Shown here: piece by piece, positions 7,778-24,588 of the stretch
How positions within the stretch are numbered: the first letter of the stretch is position 1
How the letters are laid out: each line of letters starts with the position of its first letter
DNA from: Stramenopiles sp. TOSAG23-2
Lineage: Eukaryota; Sar
Direction of reading: 5' to 3'
Length of the DNA: 28,092 nt
Assembly: GCA_900128395.1 (NCBI GenBank)
Contig: LT649408.1
Coordinates: 1-28,092 of the forward strand
The notes under the pieces: generated by a model
Told to the model about the DNA's origin: nothing
The model's input: only the letters and a program-made list of their open reading frames with translations
The model's database searches: none
Translations under genes and position numbers: made by a program

Positions 7778-10700
7778 ATGTTAACTATTATATCTTCGTC
7801 AGTGAAAAAAAATGTTTTCAAACAACATGTTCATTTTAAAAAAATCAATAATAACAAAAATGTAATAATAACAACACGTCGTACTATGGCGACAATGAAA
7901 AAATGGAGAGATTATATTAAAGAAAATCCATACTCATATGAACGTGGAGGGGAAGGATATAAGAAGATAGAGGAGATTATAAATAATTTAAGTCATTCGG
8001 AATTGCAAATTTTCGTTAATTTAAGTGGTGCTGCAAAATCATTTGGTTCATTGAGTAAAGAAGCATGGTCCGTAGAACATTTAGGTTTTAATATTGCAAG
8101 AGAAGTTGTCGGTAGACGATTAGGTGTCTCAATGGAAGAAGCACCAGGTCCAAGGTCAAATTCTGGGGAAGGTGGACAGCTAATGGATGATCCAAATTCA
8201 AAAGCATCCATTGTGCAAGTCGCTAGTGGACGTTGGATGGGTGATTCGCCATTGAAATATCTAGCCGATGCAGAAGAGATTGATATCAAAATTGCACAAG
8301 GTGTTAAACCAGGCGACGGTGGACATTTGCCGGGAACAAAAGCTACGCCATTAATTGCGCGTGTGCGCGGTGCAAGGCCTGGAAGAGATTTATATTCACC
8401 ACCACCACACCACGACATTTACTCCGTAGAAGATTTAGCACAACTTATACATGATTTGAGGCAAGTCAATCCTCAGGTAAGAAAAATATGGGTGAAATTA
8501 GCATCACGTAGTGGTGTTGGACCGATTTCATTAGTAGTAGCCAAAGCAGGTGCTGGCGTTGAAGTGACTGGATTTGGTGGTACTGGTGCTGCAAAAGCAG
8601 AGAGCAAACATTTTTATGTAAGAGACAATACACCTGGAATTTTGGAGGTGCGAAATAGTTTAATATCAGAAGGTTTATGGCCAATAGATTTAGCAGCCAG
8701 TGGCCGTATACAAACAGCAGAAGATATCGCACGTGTCGTTTTCATGGGTGCGAATCGTATCAATATGGGCACACCACTCATGCTTGCGAATGGATGCGTG
8801 AAAGCAGATTCTTGTCAAAATGATGATTGTCCAGTAGGTATTGCGACGCAACAAGAGCATTTAATAGAAAAATTCCCAGGAAGGCCAGAAAATGCAATAC
8901 GTTTCCTTTCTTTTCTATCAAAGCAAACCCAACGAATATTTGATCAATATGGATTAGATTTTCATAGTGCACGAGGCCGTGCTGATTTGTTACAAGTTGA
9001 AATGAATGAGTCAATACGTACAGGATTGCCTGAATTTTTGAAGCTGCCGGAGCCTCCAGCATGGGCAGCATCACTATCAAAAACGCAACGTGTACCGCAT
9101 GATTTGTTCGATAAAACAACGGAGCAAAAATTAATTGCAAATATTGCATTGTTACCAGATTCCTTAAACGAAAAAATTGTTTTGAATGAATCTATAACAA
9201 ACAAGCATAGAACGTTTGGTGCATTGCTTTCGAATCATATCGTTCGAAACAAAGATTTTGAAGAGAAAATTAATAAAAATGGATTAAGGATTAATTGTGA
9301 CGGTGTTGGCGGGCTAAGTTTTGGCACTGGATTACCAAAAAACGTTGAATTAGTTGTAGATGGACCGGTTAACCATGGTGTAGGCAAAGCATTAAGTGGC
9401 GGAACAATCATAGCGCAAGTGATGGGCGATCAAGCTGGATATGGTGCTGGAAACGGTACATTGATCACCCGCTCAATCGGCGATCGTGCTGCAATTCGGA
9501 GTTATGAATTAGATGTCTTAGTCGAGACGACTGGTGATATGAGCTCTTGTTACCGTACTGGTGGCCATTTTTTCGTTCTAGGGCATCCATCACATTACAA
9601 TAGCAGTAGTACATTTAAAGTTGGTAATTATAAAAGTATGGATCTATGGTCAAATAACCATGCAATGGGTCCAGGTATCGGTGGCGGTATGGGTGGTGGC
9701 GTAATTGTCCTACCACGTCAATTGCATGAGGAGAATGTATCAAATATGAGATATGCACCATCATTACAAAATGTTTTGCCCCGTGATATGAAACCAGAAG
9801 AGACGCAGTTGCTTGTAAATTTATTGACTCAAGCAAATGGTGCTTTAAAAGATTGCCAGCTGATGGAAGCACTATTAAATGAAGGCGAAACGTTTTTAAA
9901 TAAACATATGGTTGTCCTTGATCCAGTTGCTGCCCAACCAATTGCCAAAGGAAAACATCATCCAAATGTTACATGGAAAAAGCACGAATCAGAGAATTCC
10001 GTATTAGCAATCGATTGGGAAAAAGGAAACGAACGTTCAATGAGTGCCTTGAATATTGCGCAAAGTAAAGGATTTTTCGATGTATTTCAAGAATTAAGCG
10101 GGACAAGTCTTAAAAGAGAAGAATCCAGCGCTTGTGGTGTGCATTTTTTAGGTGCAAAACAAGGATCATCGAAAGAGGTAGTTGACCGGTTGTTACATAG
10201 CTTACATTTAATGGCTCATCGTGCCGGTTATGCTGATCCAAAATCATGTGATGGCGCTGGCATAAATTTAAAAATTGACGCTGAATTCTGGAAAAACAAG
10301 TTCCCAAATTTTAAAGATGTTTTTGAGGACAATAATTATGCCATCGTTGCATCGTTTATTCCAGAGGAAGCAAAAGCGGGGGAGAAATATATCGCGCGTT
10401 TTGAAAAACATTTAATAAATGAAGGTTTGACATTAAGTGCAAAGCGTGAAGTTCCGATGAATAGAGAGCATTTTGGTGTTGTTGCCACTACACAGCAATT
10501 ACCTATCATGCAATTTTTAGTACTGCGTCCAACTGATATGCCCAGTGCTAAATTTGAGGCGGCATTGTTACGATTTCAAACACGCATGGATTATGAAACA
10601 TTAAAATCAACGTGGGACCTAGAGAAAAAACCTTCTATCATATCAGCAGAGCCGGATGGTAATGTTATTTACAAAGGTTTAATGGCTCCAAGCGATTTAG

Positions 10701-13700
10701 CAAATGCATTTCCAGATTTAAAAGATCCATTATGTAAAGCATCTCGCGGTTTAGTTCATGATAGATTTTGTACAAATGCACCAAAAGGTTTAGATAAAAT
10801 CCAGCCACTATCCATTATAGCTAATAATGGGGAAATGAATAGTCTATCATCATTATACCAATTTATGACAAACGATAGTAGCTTTTTAGATTTTCTGGGC
10901 CTTGAAGAGAGTGCCAAGTTATGGGACGAAACGTTGGAAGGGGAAGTTCCATTGAGCGATTCGTACATGTTGAGTGTCTATTTAAGATACTTATTAGCAA
11001 CGCAGCCGGAAAAATCATTTGTGGATCATATTGCCTCGTTGATACCGAATGTTGTAAATAAGCAAGAAGATCCTGAGCGTTACTTATCGACATTTTTAGC
11101 CGCTGTAAATTATGTCGGTCCTTTAGCCGGCGTATTTTCATGGTCTGGTAAAGTAGTAGTTGGTGTTGATCCAAATGGTTTCCGCCCATTATGTGCTACT
11201 GAATTTACAAATGAAGAAGGTACAGAGTTTTTGCAATTTAGTTCAGAATGGATAACGGATATTGACGGAGCAAAGTATTCCGTCGTACATCCAGGCCAAG
11301 TATTAGAATTAGATGCTACAAATGGTAATATTATCCCAGCAAATATGGGCGAACCGTGGAATGAGCATCCGGCAAATAGCAACAGCAAAGGGACGAAAAA
11401 GAAAAAAAGTGAGGGGACTTTTGGAATATATTTTTATCCTCCAAAGAGCAAGAACGATGTTTCACCAATACAGGATTTAAATACTGAAATTCTTCATGCA
11501 TTAAAACCAATGGTTGGATGGAATCAGGATAATGATAAATATGTCAAAGATCTTTGCCGTGGTAAACTGTCGATTGAATCCATGGGCCATGCAGGGCCAA
11601 CTGCTAGTGAAGTTCGTGGCAATGTTGCGCCAAATAGTTTTGATTTGCTAAATCATAGTTTTGCGCAAGTTAGTAACCCTCCATTGGCGTGGAGAGAGGA
11701 AGGTGATTATATGTCCTTGGATACGCGTGTTGGTCCATATCTATTGCCGTCCCCTTTTCTATCTAATGCAATGATAAATTCGTTGCAAGAAAAACTAGAG
11801 TCAAAAGTAGTATCCACCACATTTCCAGTGCATACAATGGCACCAGGAATGAGGGTGTGTCTTCAACGCATCGTAAATGACGTTGTAGAAGCAGTTGAAG
11901 AAGGAAAACGATTTATAGTCTTATCAGAACTTGATATTAGTCCTAGCAACGGACCATGCCCATTAAATCTAGTCGTTGGTTCTGTTCATCAATCCTTGCT
12001 TAAATTAGGTTTGAGAAAGGATGTACACTTGTGCGTGCAGAGCATTTCCGCTTTGCGTCCAGGTCATTTTTCACAATTATTAGCAATGGGTGCTGATACA
12101 ATTCACCCAGTATTACTGCTAGATCCTCGCGTAAATGCATCATTGGAGGAAACTAATACCGATGAAGATTCTGTAAATATTTCTATGGAAGAACACTCTG
12201 CGAATGTTTTATCTGGCTGTGACGAAGGTTTGAAGCATTATATGTCAACGGTTGGTTTAGGAACTATCAGTTCATATCGTGGCGGATCTCACATTTGGCA
12301 AGCAGAAACATTGAATACTGAAGTTGCGGATTTAATGGGTTTGCAACCACCAAGATTTTCCGGTATTGGCTTTGGAAGATTAGCGAAATGGCTGTATACC
12401 ACTTGGTTTTTCCCATCTAAAGAAGGACCAGGGTTGTACCAATACAACGGACAACGTGCAACTGTTCCTGTTTGGTCAGCTGAATACACTCGTGCAGTAA
12501 GACGTATGGCAGCAGATGAAAAAGAAGATGAAACCATGATCCAAGATATGGAAGTTGCTTGCGACAATGTCAATGTAATTAAACGTAGTGCTTGGAGTAT
12601 GTCCCGTATACCATCAAAAATGTGGGGGCCTGAAAATCCAATGAATATATGCGTAGTAGGTGGTGGCGCAGCAGGGTATTTTGTAACTAACGAATTGCTT
12701 GAAGCGGATATCCCAGCCAATGTCACCATGGTAGAAAAAAATTTAATCAATGGTGGTGGTGTTGTATATCGTGGCCTTTCTCCATTGCATCATTCAACGA
12801 AACGAAATACGTTGAAAAGGCTATTAAATATTCATAAAAGTGGAATAGAAAAAGGCGCCTTAAGCTATGCTGGTGGTGTTCAAATAAATAAAGGAGATTT
12901 AAAAAAGTTATTATCCACCTTTAGTGTAGTCATTGATGCATCTGGATCATCAACGGCAAATCACTTGAGTTGTCCAGGTCATCAACATGCAACCGAAGCG
13001 GCAGAAATTTACAGCAGATACAATCAAATCATGGATCCAACCTCAATAAAAAGTAGTGTCGACTCCCATTGGCATGGTTCTTTAAATCGCTTTAATCGCG
13101 CTACGGTAGTTGTTGGAGGTGGAAATGTTGCATTTGATATTTTATCTGTATTGACATTGAGTAAACATTTATTCGAACCACATACAATTAATCAAAAATT
13201 TATCGAAGCGCGAGATGAATATGGCTCTACACATGTTGTGTCATTAATACGCAAGCAACCGTGGGATTTAGCCAGTGACGTCCATGTTTTGAAAGAATTT
13301 TTTTCATTAATGCAAAAATCAAATGTCAAGATTCAAGTTAGTGGTGTTAGTAAATTGGAGCCTACAGATGACATGACAGAGCAAGAACGGGCAAAATTAG
13401 AATTATTTTTAGAATATGTAGATAAAGAAGATAAATTGAATGAAGAATTTTGGCCTGAAGCAAGAGATGGTCGTAGTGTCCATTTCCGCTTCGGACAAGA
13501 AGTGTCGAATATTGAACGTTTAAAAGGTGGTTTAAAAGTTACCATTGGCCAAAATGGACAATACGTGAAAGAATTTCAAGCATACCAAGTGATTGAAGCT
13601 ATGGGTTATGTTGGTGAGGATAAATTTGAAATATTTGGGGAAAACAACGGTGCATTAGAAAGCTTATCAGCGGAAGAAAAAAAGCAAATATATCAAGCCG

Positions 13701-14341
13701 GGTGGGCATTTAAACCTGGGAATTTAGCATCTGCTGAAGGTTCTGCGAAGAAAATTGTTGGAGAAATCACACGAAATTATCACATGGGAGTTTTCCATGG
13801 ATTGGGCAAAAGCTCTATTCAAGGTGCACAAATTGAACCGCTACTTGCCTCTGCACCAGTTGATACAAGTACACAAGAAAATATTTTTAATTATTTACTT
13901 GAAGTTGGTCGTATCGAGGAGGCGGAAGATTATTTCAATGCAAGATCATTTGTTAGTATGGAAATGGCAGCAAATTTTGAAAGGTCTTTGTCAAATATAC
14001 ACACGCCACCAGCAGTTGATAGCGTTGATGATGTATTGGTTGGCGCAGTATCGAATGTTCGTGATGGCTTTTTCGGCTTTACGGATGATGGTGGTGATTT
14101 TATTGAATATGCAGCAAATGATGCACGTTTAGATGAAGTTATTGGATGTACTGGTAGTTGCGATGGTGCAAAAACTTGTTTGGATTGTGTTGTTGATGTA
14201 ATTGGAAAAGAGGTAGATGCAGATGCATCAGAAACTAGATTATTGGCTCAAATTGGGATGTTTAAACCAAATAGAATTTTGAGTTGTTGTCATACGGCAA
14301 AGGAGGTTGAAAAATCAACTGTTAAGTCAGTTGAGGCTTGA
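7778..14341 (+). CDS. Circularly permuted glutamate synthase fused to adrenodoxin-reductase-like and [2Fe-2S] ferredoxin domains
   Basis: One 2,187-residue exon. Order seen: basic, acid-free leader (1-40, likely mitochondrial targeting); FMN glutamate-synthase domain (about 44-420, with GAAKSFGSLS, SNSGEGG, SPPPHHDIYS and the 3Fe-4S cysteines C340-x5-C346-x4-C351 before PVGIATQ); GXGXG domain (about 505-665); linker; class II glutaminase (786-1185, with C786 in SACGVHF, CDGAGI, NNGE at 1016-1019, DPNGFRPL); GOGAT central domain (about 1237-1575); FAD/NAD(P) module (about 1620-2000, GxGxxG at 1628-1633, GGGNVAFD at 1780, GWAFKPGN near 1974); C-terminal ferredoxin (C2128-x5-C2134-x2-C2137 and C2170/2171). 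Canonical enzymes run glutaminase, central, FMN, GXGXG, with a separate or C-terminal GltD. Here the order is permuted, and the reductase resembles adrenodoxin reductase rather than GltD, whose N-terminal 4Fe-4S domain is absent. Inferred reaction: glutamine plus 2-oxoglutarate plus NAD(P)H to two glutamates, in mitochondria. Confidence 0.9.
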   Translation: MLTIISSSVKKNVFKQHVHFKKINNNKNVIITTRRTMATMKKWRDYIKENPYSYERGGEGYKKIEEIINNLSHSELQIFVNLSGAAKSFGSLSKEAWSVEHLGFNIAREVVGRRLGVSMEEAPGPRSNSGEGGQLMDDPNSKASIVQVASGRWMGDSPLKYLADAEEIDIKIAQGVKPGDGGHLPGTKATPLIARVRGARPGRDLYSPPPHHDIYSVEDLAQLIHDLRQVNPQVRKIWVKLASRSGVGPISLVVAKAGAGVEVTGFGGTGAAKAESKHFYVRDNTPGILEVRNSLISEGLWPIDLAASGRIQTAEDIARVVFMGANRINMGTPLMLANGCVKADSCQNDDCPVGIATQQEHLIEKFPGRPENAIRFLSFLSKQTQRIFDQYGLDFHSARGRADLLQVEMNESIRTGLPEFLKLPEPPAWAASLSKTQRVPHDLFDKTTEQKLIANIALLPDSLNEKIVLNESITNKHRTFGALLSNHIVRNKDFEEKINKNGLRINCDGVGGLSFGTGLPKNVELVVDGPVNHGVGKALSGGTIIAQVMGDQAGYGAGNGTLITRSIGDRAAIRSYELDVLVETTGDMSSCYRTGGHFFVLGHPSHYNSSSTFKVGNYKSMDLWSNNHAMGPGIGGGMGGGVIVLPRQLHEENVSNMRYAPSLQNVLPRDMKPEETQLLVNLLTQANGALKDCQLMEALLNEGETFLNKHMVVLDPVAAQPIAKGKHHPNVTWKKHESENSVLAIDWEKGNERSMSALNIAQSKGFFDVFQELSGTSLKREESSACGVHFLGAKQGSSKEVVDRLLHSLHLMAHRAGYADPKSCDGAGINLKIDAEFWKNKFPNFKDVFEDNNYAIVASFIPEEAKAGEKYIARFEKHLINEGLTLSAKREVPMNREHFGVVATTQQLPIMQFLVLRPTDMPSAKFEAALLRFQTRMDYETLKSTWDLEKKPSIISAEPDGNVIYKGLMAPSDLANAFPDLKDPLCKASRGLVHDRFCTNAPKGLDKIQPLSIIANNGEMNSLSSLYQFMTNDSSFLDFLGLEESAKLWDETLEGEVPLSDSYMLSVYLRYLLATQPEKSFVDHIASLIPNVVNKQEDPERYLSTFLAAVNYVGPLAGVFSWSGKVVVGVDPNGFRPLCATEFTNEEGTEFLQFSSEWITDIDGAKYSVVHPGQVLELDATNGNIIPANMGEPWNEHPANSNSKGTKKKKSEGTFGIYFYPPKSKNDVSPIQDLNTEILHALKPMVGWNQDNDKYVKDLCRGKLSIESMGHAGPTASEVRGNVAPNSFDLLNHSFAQVSNPPLAWREEGDYMSLDTRVGPYLLPSPFLSNAMINSLQEKLESKVVSTTFPVHTMAPGMRVCLQRIVNDVVEAVEEGKRFIVLSELDISPSNGPCPLNLVVGSVHQSLLKLGLRKDVHLCVQSISALRPGHFSQLLAMGADTIHPVLLLDPRVNASLEETNTDEDSVNISMEEHSANVLSGCDEGLKHYMSTVGLGTISSYRGGSHIWQAETLNTEVADLMGLQPPRFSGIGFGRLAKWLYTTWFFPSKEGPGLYQYNGQRATVPVWSAEYTRAVRRMAADEKEDETMIQDMEVACDNVNVIKRSAWSMSRIPSKMWGPENPMNICVVGGGAAGYFVTNELLEADIPANVTMVEKNLINGGGVVYRGLSPLHHSTKRNTLKRLLNIHKSGIEKGALSYAGGVQINKGDLKKLLSTFSVVIDASGSSTANHLSCPGHQHATEAAEIYSRYNQIMDPTSIKSSVDSHWHGSLNRFNRATVVVGGGNVAFDILSVLTLSKHLFEPHTINQKFIEARDEYGSTHVVSLIRKQPWDLASDVHVLKEFFSLMQKSNVKIQVSGVSKLEPTDDMTEQERAKLELFLEYVDKEDKLNEEFWPEARDGRSVHFRFGQEVSNIERLKGGLKVTIGQNGQYVKEFQAYQVIEAMGYVGEDKFEIFGENNGALESLSAEEKKQIYQAGWAFKPGNLASAEGSAKKIVGEITRNYHMGVFHGLGKSSIQGAQIEPLLASAPVDTSTQENIFNYLLEVGRIEEAEDYFNARSFVSMEMAANFERSLSNIHTPPAVDSVDDVLVGAVSNVRDGFFGFTDDGGDFIEYAANDARLDEVIGCTGSCDGAKTCLDCVVDVIGKEVDADASETRLLAQIGMFKPNRILSCCHTAKEVEKSTVKSVEA

Positions 14342-20894: not shown

Positions 20895-21395
20895 TTACAA
20901 TCTCCCACCTTCCCATAATTGATGTTTAGAACAAGTAGGATCAATGGAACGTGGTATAAACAAGACATCCGTAGTAAATGTTCTTGGCAATACAATATCA
21001 CAATAACCAATTGATAATCTCCCACCTTCCCATAATTGATGTTTAGAACAAGTAGGATCAATGGAACGTGGTATAAACAAGACATCCGTAGTAAATGTTC
21101 TTGGCAATACAATATCACAATAACCAATTGATACTAATTCACGATATGTCTTCGTATTTGCTTCTGCTTGTGGATGCCTTTCGATACCCCAACCAACTTC
21201 GACAATGAAAATTGGTAATATTTTCTTTTCTAATGAAATTTGACGCAACCAAGGTAATGCACCTCGAATTACCATCCCTTCAAACCCTTCTACATCTATT
21301 TTAATCACTGATACATCATTTGAAAATTTCTGGTTTAATGAATGAAATACTGATGATAAAGAACAGCACAAGTAATGTTTTCTGTAGTATGTCAA
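20895..21395 (-). CDS. FkbM-family methyltransferase, C-terminal part only, with duplicated C terminus
   Basis: 166 residues. VSVIKIDVEGFEGMVIRGA (29-47) followed by ILPIFIVEVGW is the hallmark of FkbM/Methyltransf_21 proteins, SAM-dependent O-methyltransferases often acting on sugars or secondary metabolites. The usual N-terminal half with the SAM-binding GANIG-type motif is missing: upstream of 21395 every minus-strand frame soon meets stops, while the plus strand is open (21375-21557). So the ATG at 21395 is probably not the true start; an unseen upstream exon, a rearrangement or a misjoin is likely. The last 39 residues are exactly doubled (89-127 and 128-166) by an in-frame 117-bp tandem duplication. 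The single-copy form would be the expected protein end. Confidence 0.7.
   Translation of the reverse strand: MTYYRKHYLCCSLSSVFHSLNQKFSNDVSVIKIDVEGFEGMVIRGALPWLRQISLEKKILPIFIVEVGWGIERHPQAEANTKTYRELVSIGYCDIVLPRTFTTDVLFIPRSIDPTCSKHQLWEGGRLSIGYCDIVLPRTFTTDVLFIPRSIDPTCSKHQLWEGGRL
20899..21132 (-). repeat. Perfect 117-bp tandem duplication, in frame, in the FkbM gene
   Basis: 20899-21015 and 21016-21132 are identical and abut. The unit is 39 codons and begins two bases inside the stop codon boundary, so the frame passes through both copies. The encoded repeat starts SIGYCDIVLPRT and ends LWEGGRL. Confidence 0.96.
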
Positions 21396-23547: not shown

Positions 23548-24384
23548 TCATCTTTTTAGGAAATTTAGTAGAACTGGTACTGGTAATGTAGGATCGGCTA
23601 TTAAAGGTATGCTGATTTTATCCATAATACTTTTGGCTGGAATAGGAAATTGCTTTTGCAAAAGATCTGGCACACCTTCTGTACTTGAGCTATTATTATT
23701 GCTACTATTGCAACTACATTGATCATTATGTTCAACATGATTTGTCAGCACATATCCAGGTATATCTTTTACTTTGAATATTGTATATCCTGTCTTAGCT
23801 TCACATGTTTTATAATTTTCACACCGATATAACGTTCTTTTGTTGAGAACTAATCCATGCATGTAAGCCATATCATGTTTTAGCATTATCAAATCAATAT
23901 AGACACTTTCAACTGGTAGTTTATATTGCAATCTTATATCATCGGCCTTTGCTTTAGCATTTTCAAATACCTTTCGTTGATATTTACGCCTCCGAACTAC
24001 GTTTCGTTTTGCATCCATATTTTTTGATGGGCTGGTTTGACTGTATACATCTTCAACATTAGAATCATTAATTTCACTATTGTGTTGATATTTACGCCTC
24101 CGAACTACGTTTCGTTTTGCATCCATATTTTTTGATGGGCTGGTTTGACTGTATACATCTTCAACATTAGAATCATTAATTTCACTATTGTCATTGAAAT
24201 TGACCCCCTCATAATTATCATCGCCATTGTCATCATTGTTGGCATTATCAACATTGTTATTATTGTATGCTGATACATCAATAATATTTTCATACACACC
24301 AATATTGTAATCACGTTCTATTGTCTTTAGGATTTCAGCTGAAATCTCCACTTCAGGTATATTTGTTGTTTTTCTTTTAGACAT
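23548..24384 (-). CDS. FLYWCH-like zinc-finger protein with a 36-residue internal tandem repeat
   Basis: 278 residues from the ATG complement at 24382-24384 (the frame runs four codons further to a TTG). The N-terminal third is acidic, with an Asn/Asp-rich run (about 40-75). Residues 66-100 and 102-136 are identical (NSEINDSNVEDVYSQ through RRRKYQ) because of an in-frame 108-bp tandem duplication. The C-terminal half holds C188-x5-C194-x21-H216-x2-H219-x3-C223 in the context LYRCENYKTCEAKTGY and NHVEHNDQC, the spacing and flavour of FLYWCH/WRKY-GCM1 zinc fingers used for DNA binding by MULE transposases and derived host proteins. It is followed by an Asn/Ser run and a tail with several Pro/Leu pairs. 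It lies between 160-bp inverted repeats. The domain call is by eye; no transposase catalytic region is present. Confidence 0.6.
   Translation of the reverse strand: MSKRKTTNIPEVEISAEILKTIERDYNIGVYENIIDVSAYNNNNVDNANNDDNGDDNYEGVNFNDNSEINDSNVEDVYSQTSPSKNMDAKRNVVRRRKYQHNSEINDSNVEDVYSQTSPSKNMDAKRNVVRRRKYQRKVFENAKAKADDIRLQYKLPVESVYIDLIMLKHDMAYMHGLVLNKRTLYRCENYKTCEAKTGYTIFKVKDIPGYVLTNHVEHNDQCSCNSSNNNSSSTEGVPDLLQKQFPIPAKSIMDKISIPLIADPTLPVPVLLNFLKR
23976..24191 (-). repeat. Perfect 108-bp in-frame tandem duplication in the zinc-finger gene
   Basis: 23976-24083 and 24084-24191 are identical and abut. The unit is 36 codons, so the frame is kept; the junction creates a His (H101) not present in the first unit's start. 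Confidence 0.96.
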
Positions 24385-24588
24385 TTTGTATTGCAAATAT
24401 AGAAATTTATATGCATTGTATATGCAATATATAACATGTGCAATAGAGTATGATATGATATGAAATAAAATACTTGTACATATATATATTTATTAAAAAT
24501 ACATTTATTCATTAGATATTATTACAAGTCTTGAATGACAACATTTAGTTGATAATATCTAAAAATAACTAATTTTTTAAGGACTTTA
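24385..24588. other. Upstream flank of the zinc-finger gene, inside the inverted-repeat unit
   Basis: AT-rich DNA with TATGATATGATATGA-type short repeats near 24450-24463. It is probably promoter or leader of the minus-strand gene. No other gene seen. Confidence 0.35.

Follow-up and report, generated by a model that had tools for sequence, protein, structure and literature searches.

The window examined here is a stretch of 28,092 nucleotides (positions 1 to 28,092 of contig LT649408.1, assembly GCA_900128395.1) from Stramenopiles sp. TOSAG23-2, and it contains a long open reading frame (ORF), P0001, at 7778-14341 on the forward strand. We found that P0001 is a circularly permuted glutamate synthase, followed in the same frame by a flavin-dependent reductase module and a ferredoxin domain. 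The permutation is the main point of this analysis and was absent from an earlier note on this DNA, in which only the C-terminal quarter of the ORF was flagged. We suggest, with a probability of roughly 0.8, that P0001 is a self-contained enzyme with a glutaminase acting through Cys786, a built-in electron supply made of an adrenodoxin reductase (FDXR)-like module and a ferredoxin, and a probable cleavage into two chains.

All four domains of the large subunit GltB are present in P0001, each above its Pfam cut-off (GATase_2 141.1, Glu_syn_central 119.7, Glu_synthase 250.7 and GXGXG 69.8 bits). The canonical order is glutaminase (1-422), central domain, synthase domain and C-terminal beta-helix, according to PMC8097209. 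P0001 departs from this order and runs from synthase, beta-helix, glutaminase and central domain to the flavin module and the ferredoxin, with Pfam matches at residues 22-393 (Glu_synthase), 473-643 (GXGXG), 786-1187 (GATase_2), 1261-1504 (Glu_syn_central) and 1623-1814 (Pyr_redox_2). When 115 canonical proteins were combined into a profile, it matched P0001 twice in swapped order, with positions 870-1406 falling on residues 73-603 and positions 12-779 on residues 776-1537; the alignment with the PDB chain 6s6s_A was swapped likewise (residues 780-1537 on chain positions 31-792 and 115-604 on 907-1415). The same profile matched P0003, P0122, P0004, P0005 and P0008, which are relatives of P0001, in two to three pieces each in the swapped order, and it matched the canonical proteins P0006 and P0080, both members of the 115, once from end to end. 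The new N-terminus falls directly ahead of the synthase domain, the match of which starts at residue 22 by Pfam or at residue 73 by the canonical profile. The tail of the canonical chain is apparently retained after the beta-helix, where a variable linker then leads to the glutaminase, as judged by eye from the alignment. The NCBIfam equivalog model for the large subunit gave 500.1 bits, short of its cut-off of 1047.

The relatives were collected by searching a protein database with P0001; the best 120 of 719 matches were examined for domain order and aligned with P0001 in 121 rows. Among these matches, motif order was permuted in 6 of the 121 rows (P0001, its identical database copy P0002, P0003, P0004, P0005 and P0008). 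A motif script assigned 94 of the remaining 115 rows to the canonical order and left 21 unassigned; all 21 were counted as canonical, since their synthase motif PPPHHDIY sits where canonical proteins have it (987-1018 in a length of about 1500 residues). Pfam scans found the permuted order in P0003, P0004, P0005 and, partially, P0008, and the canonical order in P0006. A second search with the alignment as the query gave 7938 matches, of which the best 120 included 116 new ones; P0122 (2103 residues), the only one of these examined, has the complete permuted layout with a Fer2 match at its end. P0003 is 63% identical to P0001 over 95% of its length in the database search and 66% in the multiple alignment, where the identities of P0122, P0004, P0005 and P0008 are 30%, 33%, 34% and 29%. 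P0008 follows the permuted order as far as it is present and is without the synthase domain. P0004 and P0008 end inside the flavin domain and P0005 before it, the kind of truncation that an intron would cause in an ORF.

A quick tree was computed from the six distinct permuted sequences together with every fourth of the 115 canonical rows (29 in all), and in it the permuted rows formed one side of a branch with an SH-aLRT support of 100. They fell into three deep lines, and the reductase and ferredoxin were seen in two of them. A single origin of the permuted rows is compatible with this unrooted tree and not proven by it, as the branches are long and the canonical rows are bacterial where named, with no eukaryotic canonical sequence knowingly included. 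The assembly is fragmented into 793 contigs, so that a chimeric assembly or mis-joined genes could be imagined as the source of the unusual order. However, the frame of 2187 codons is uninterrupted, five further proteins, none identical to P0001 and drawn from several sources, have the same order, and the permuted rows stand together in the tree. We regard such an artifact as practically negligible; the independent relatives with the same order speak against an assembly chimera, which was rejected.

The flavin module was compared with both candidate families. P0001 is not a canonical GltB/GltD enzyme, because neither the canonical order nor the Fer4_20 domain, which holds the 4Fe-4S clusters of GltD and DPYD, was found. 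No Pfam match to Fer4_20 appeared at E ≤ 1 in P0001, nor in P0122, in agreement with the earlier note, which had stated that the N-terminal 4Fe-4S domain of GltD was missing; residues 1505-1620 of P0001 contain a single cysteine. An ordinary fused NADH-dependent glutamate synthase was rejected on the domain order and the missing Fer4_20. The motifs that had led the earlier note to an adrenodoxin reductase are in place, with GGGNVAFDIL at residues 1780-1789, HVLKEFF at 1836-1842 and GWAFKPGN at 1975-1982. Residues 1619-2041 matched the PDB sequences of adrenodoxin reductase (1cjc) at E 5.7e-7, FprA at 0.0075 and GltD (2vdc) at 0.043. For the flavin part of P0122, the values were 8.2e-26 for FDXR, 1e-23 for FprA and 2.5e-9 for the best GltD; for a three-member family profile, they were 6.3e-25, 5.6e-22 and 5.0e-7, respectively. 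In none of these comparisons did GltD score better, and the match to FDXR covers roughly the N-terminal 225 residues of the module. The top seven Foldseek hits were FDXR or FprA chains (424-474 alignment columns), although the query was a poor model and the support is weak. By these pairwise and profile comparisons, the module resembles adrenodoxin reductase more closely than it does GltD.

The ferredoxin that had been predicted after the reductase carries the adrenodoxin pattern C-x5-C-x2-C at C2128, C2134 and C2137, with the fourth ligand at C2170 or C2171, giving spacings of 5, 2 and then 32 or 33. The homologous domain of P0122 matched Fer2 at 27.4 bits, above the cut-off of 21. With the ferredoxin family profile, 16 of the 22 chains found up to E 10 were ferredoxins, putidaredoxins or terpredoxins. 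The pattern supports a divergent adrenodoxin-type domain that has kept its cysteines.

To examine the catalytic sites, the permuted halves were rearranged into the canonical order and realigned, and the near-invariant canonical columns were scored. P0001 retained 88 of 115 such columns in the synthase domain, 31 of 48 in the beta-helix, 40 of 67 in the glutaminase and 18 of 31 in the central domain. The GltB ligand pattern of the 3Fe-4S cluster is present as C-x5-C-x4-C (C340, C346 and C351). Cys786, Arg996, Asn1017 and Gly1018 are retained in all six permuted rows of the realignment; Asp1061 is retained in six of six in the multiple alignment and in five of six in the realignment. We take this Arg, Asn, Gly and Asp beside the first cysteine to be residues of the glutaminase site. 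In the canonical rows, the glutaminase cysteine could be located in 114 of 115, at residues 13-60, and 111 of these 114 carry Glu at position -4. In the six permuted rows this position is Glu in four and Asp in two, and the retained acidic residue on the propeptide side would fit a preserved cleavage. Class II glutaminases require a free N-terminal cysteine, which is exposed by removal of a propeptide. The nucleophile lies inside the chain because the catalytic core is circularly permuted, and an internal cleavage into two chains is predicted because a class II nucleophile must be N-terminal while Cys786 is internal.

Taken from the sequence, the enzyme would work like a ferredoxin-type glutamate synthase in which both ferredoxin and reductase are built in. 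NAD(P)H would reduce the FAD of the adrenodoxin-reductase-like module, and Cys786 would split glutamine, with the ammonia tunnelling to 2-oxoglutarate and the resulting imine being reduced to glutamate by FMN. The precursor is probably cut ahead of Cys786, giving an N chain with the synthase and beta-helix domains and a C chain with all the rest, from the glutaminase and central domain to the reductase and ferredoxin; the two would stay assembled, so that the working enzyme may not remain the one chain that the earlier note had pictured. Residues 1-44 are basic and have no acidic residue, and the N-terminal extension is possibly a targeting peptide, such as the mitochondrial one that the earlier note had assumed.

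Several results weigh against this interpretation. For the flavin module, the NCBIfam model of GltD (TIGR01317) matched P0122 at 49.2 bits and P0003 at 27.3 bits, and the predicted structure of the flavin and ferredoxin parts reached a pLDDT of only 39.9 with a three-sequence alignment. The module might be a truncated GltD whose N-terminal 4Fe-4S part is gone, and the whole protein an ordinary NAD(P)H-dependent glutamate synthase with rearranged domains, an idea compatible with the other alternatives. The best matches between P0122 and GltD begin 28-29 residues ahead of the start of the FDXR match, before the Rossmann core, and this segment is possibly a relic of a GltD linker. However, no adrenodoxin reductase model was among the NCBIfam matches and the library may be one-sided here; the direct comparisons prefer FDXR both for P0122 and for the family profile, and both P0001 and P0122 lack Fer4_20 and have a ferredoxin domain following instead. 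We consider a GltD origin rather unlikely.

The ferredoxin domain of P0001 itself matched Fer2 at E 0.029 and 14.7 bits only, below the cut-off of 21, and for the ferredoxin part of P0003 alone, Pfam had nothing at E ≤ 10. The best PDB match of the P0001 domain was a ferredoxin at E 0.47, followed by an unrelated photosystem protein at 0.68, and none of the 22 chains found with the family profile scored better than E 0.025. The spacing between the third and fourth cysteines is 32-34 in the family versus 36-37 in the two separate adrenodoxins of the host, with which hhalign gave the ferredoxin parts a probability of 20.6% (E 0.0011). The outcome that the earlier note had named as refuting, C-terminal cysteines matching no 2Fe-2S fold, did not arise. 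Adrenodoxins are general electron carriers and this domain is the last in the chain, so that it might serve the synthase domain only in small part or not at all and pass its electrons elsewhere. However, the host does not lack a general carrier, as it has its two separate adrenodoxins, and the synthase would have no visible electron donor if the fused ferredoxin were excluded. We think such a diversion of electrons distinctly improbable.

In the glutaminase of P0001, 27 of the 67 near-invariant columns are altered, which makes this domain more divergent than the synthase, and P0004 shows Gly in place of Asp1061 in the realignment, probably through an alignment shift. With its cysteine at residue 786, the glutaminase may be dead or decoupled, and the protein may be an ammonia-dependent glutamate synthase or have some other function. 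However, the cysteine, the acidic residue at -4 and the other presumed site residues are retained in six permuted rows that differ by up to 70%. An unused site is disfavoured because there would otherwise be no reason for retaining them, and we judge this alternative unlikely. A self-contained permuted enzyme with a working glutaminase is still the interpretation that we prefer.

The permuted enzyme shares features with several known systems. Like the NAD(P)H-dependent glutamate synthases (GltB with GltD, or the fused eukaryotic NADH form), it has the same four large-subunit domains, the 3Fe-4S cysteines and the glutaminase site, and like the fused form it has a pyridine-nucleotide-type FAD module in the same chain. 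It differs from them in the permuted order, the lack of the 4Fe-4S domain of GltD, the reductase nearer to FDXR, the appended ferredoxin and the internal glutaminase cysteine. In the ferredoxin-dependent enzymes of cyanobacteria and plastids, electrons pass through a [2Fe-2S] ferredoxin into the 3Fe-4S cluster and FMN, as is expected in P0001; in P0001, however, the ferredoxin and reductase are in the chain, the ferredoxin is of the adrenodoxin type and the order is permuted. With adrenodoxin reductase (or FprA) and adrenodoxin, it has in common the FAD and NADP motifs, the GGGNVA segment and the C-x5-C-x2-C...C pattern, but it is fused to a glutamate synthase, and its ferredoxin is divergent with the shorter spacing. 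PMC8097209 also names separate single-domain glutamate synthase ORFs in archaea; these are individual genes and no permuted fusion, and they show that the modules are able to stand alone, from which state a different order of joining could arise. In the open-access literature (titles and abstract openings, partly best matches, with preprints and most subscription papers outside), no permuted glutamate synthase and no fusion of one to adrenodoxin reductase or ferredoxin was found. The features of P0001 are collected in Table 1.

Table 1. Features of the permuted glutamate synthase ORF in the window
Feature	Position	Strand	Basis or remark
ORF P0001, permuted glutamate synthase with reductase and ferredoxin	7778..14341	+	single uninterrupted frame, 2187 codons/residues
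Basic N-terminal extension, possible targeting peptide	7778..7993	+	residues 1-45: 8 K, 3 R, 1 D, 0 E
FMN/synthase domain (Glu_synthase, PF01645), first rather than third	7994..8956	+	Pfam; canonical profile 870-1406 on residues 73-603
C-x5-C-x4-C, expected [3Fe-4S] ligands C340, C346, C351	8792..8830	+	kept in 5/5 permuted rows holding the region (P0008 lacks it)
GXGXG beta-helix domain (PF01493)	9194..9706	+	Pfam
Apparent tail of canonical chain, then variable linker to glutaminase; predicted cleavage at 3' end	9707..10132	+	alignment judged by eye; cleavage inferred
Class II glutaminase domain (GATase_2, PF00310), starting at Cys786	10133..11338	+	Pfam, PDB alignment, realignment
Cys786, equivalent of glutaminase Cys1, internal	10133..10135	+	6/6 permuted rows, acidic residue at -4
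Central domain (Glu_syn_central, PF04898) including its end	11558..12388	+	Pfam; canonical profile 12-779 on residues 776-1537
Adrenodoxin-reductase-like FAD/NAD(P) module	12635..13972	+	Pfam, sequence/profile comparison with PDB; Foldseek weakly
Adrenodoxin-type [2Fe-2S] ferredoxin domain	14063..14338	+	Fer2 (P0122), family profile, cysteine spacing

The neighbouring genes in the window are eukaryotic in kind by their Pfam matches. They encode a protein with four RRM domains and an MLLE domain, presumably a poly(A)-binding protein from this architecture, a protein with the NOT2/3/5 C-terminal domain and a protein with two 4Fe-4S motifs. On the reverse strand, the ORF at 20895-21395, which looks FkbM-like by eye, has a C-terminal direct repeat of 39 residues (SIGYCDIVLPRTF...EGGRL, twice), and the ORF at 23548-24396, without a Pfam match, has a 35-residue internal repeat without mismatches (NSEINDSNVEDVYSQ...RRRKYQ).

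The assembly comprises 17.45 Mb. Searches with GXGXG and with the whole protein found no other glutamate synthase in it, and no GltD was seen, although introns and a possibly incomplete assembly weaken such searches. Its sole Fer4_20 match is a dihydropyrimidine-dehydrogenase-like protein. This protein is fused to a carbon-nitrogen hydrolase in a single frame of 1519 residues (L008:1018-5577, G000:C132); the hydrolase part is presumably beta-ureidopropionase-like, and the fusion would unite two steps of pyrimidine breakdown. Fer2 matches elsewhere were two adrenodoxin-type proteins and one xanthine-dehydrogenase-like protein, and the divergent ferredoxin of P0001 was not reported by this search. 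The two adrenodoxin-type ferredoxins (L003:1435-1908 and L004:1411-1914) are 43% identical, and one has an extra cysteine beside the cluster motif. Searches for a second FDXR with the flavin parts of P0001 and P0122 returned the P0001 gene alone, with only the best candidate scored. Stand-alone relatives of the reductase-ferredoxin part were sought with a C-terminal piece of 589 residues, and none of the 7995 candidates scored reached E ≤ 0.001. No relative was confirmed in prokaryote genomes or viral contigs, and these negatives are weak, as six peptide patterns were used per single-sequence scan and two per alignment scan. The glutamine synthetase domain had a partial match in the assembly (positions 16-172 of 344), and no light-harvesting protein was found. 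The ELFV-type glutamate dehydrogenase domain was also not found in the assembly, compared to 14 of 14 control genomes that have it, other glutamate dehydrogenase families being outside this search. Should this absence prove genuine, the organism may depend mainly on the permuted enzyme for its glutamate.

Glutamate synthase is described, in PMC8097209, with one domain order and two electron supplies, either GltD-type or free ferredoxin. It is possible, at about even odds in our judgement, that P0001 represents a protist family of permuted enzymes in which the entire synthase half acts as a propeptide for the glutaminase, the precursor cleaves itself before Cys786 into two chains, and the built-in pair of FDXR and ferredoxin forms a third type of electron supply. 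Such an enzyme with its third electron supply would mean that ammonia tunnelling and glutaminase-synthase coupling tolerate a changed chain connection, and with P0001 one could test directly whether a class II amidotransferase can have its N-terminal cysteine freed deep within a chain.

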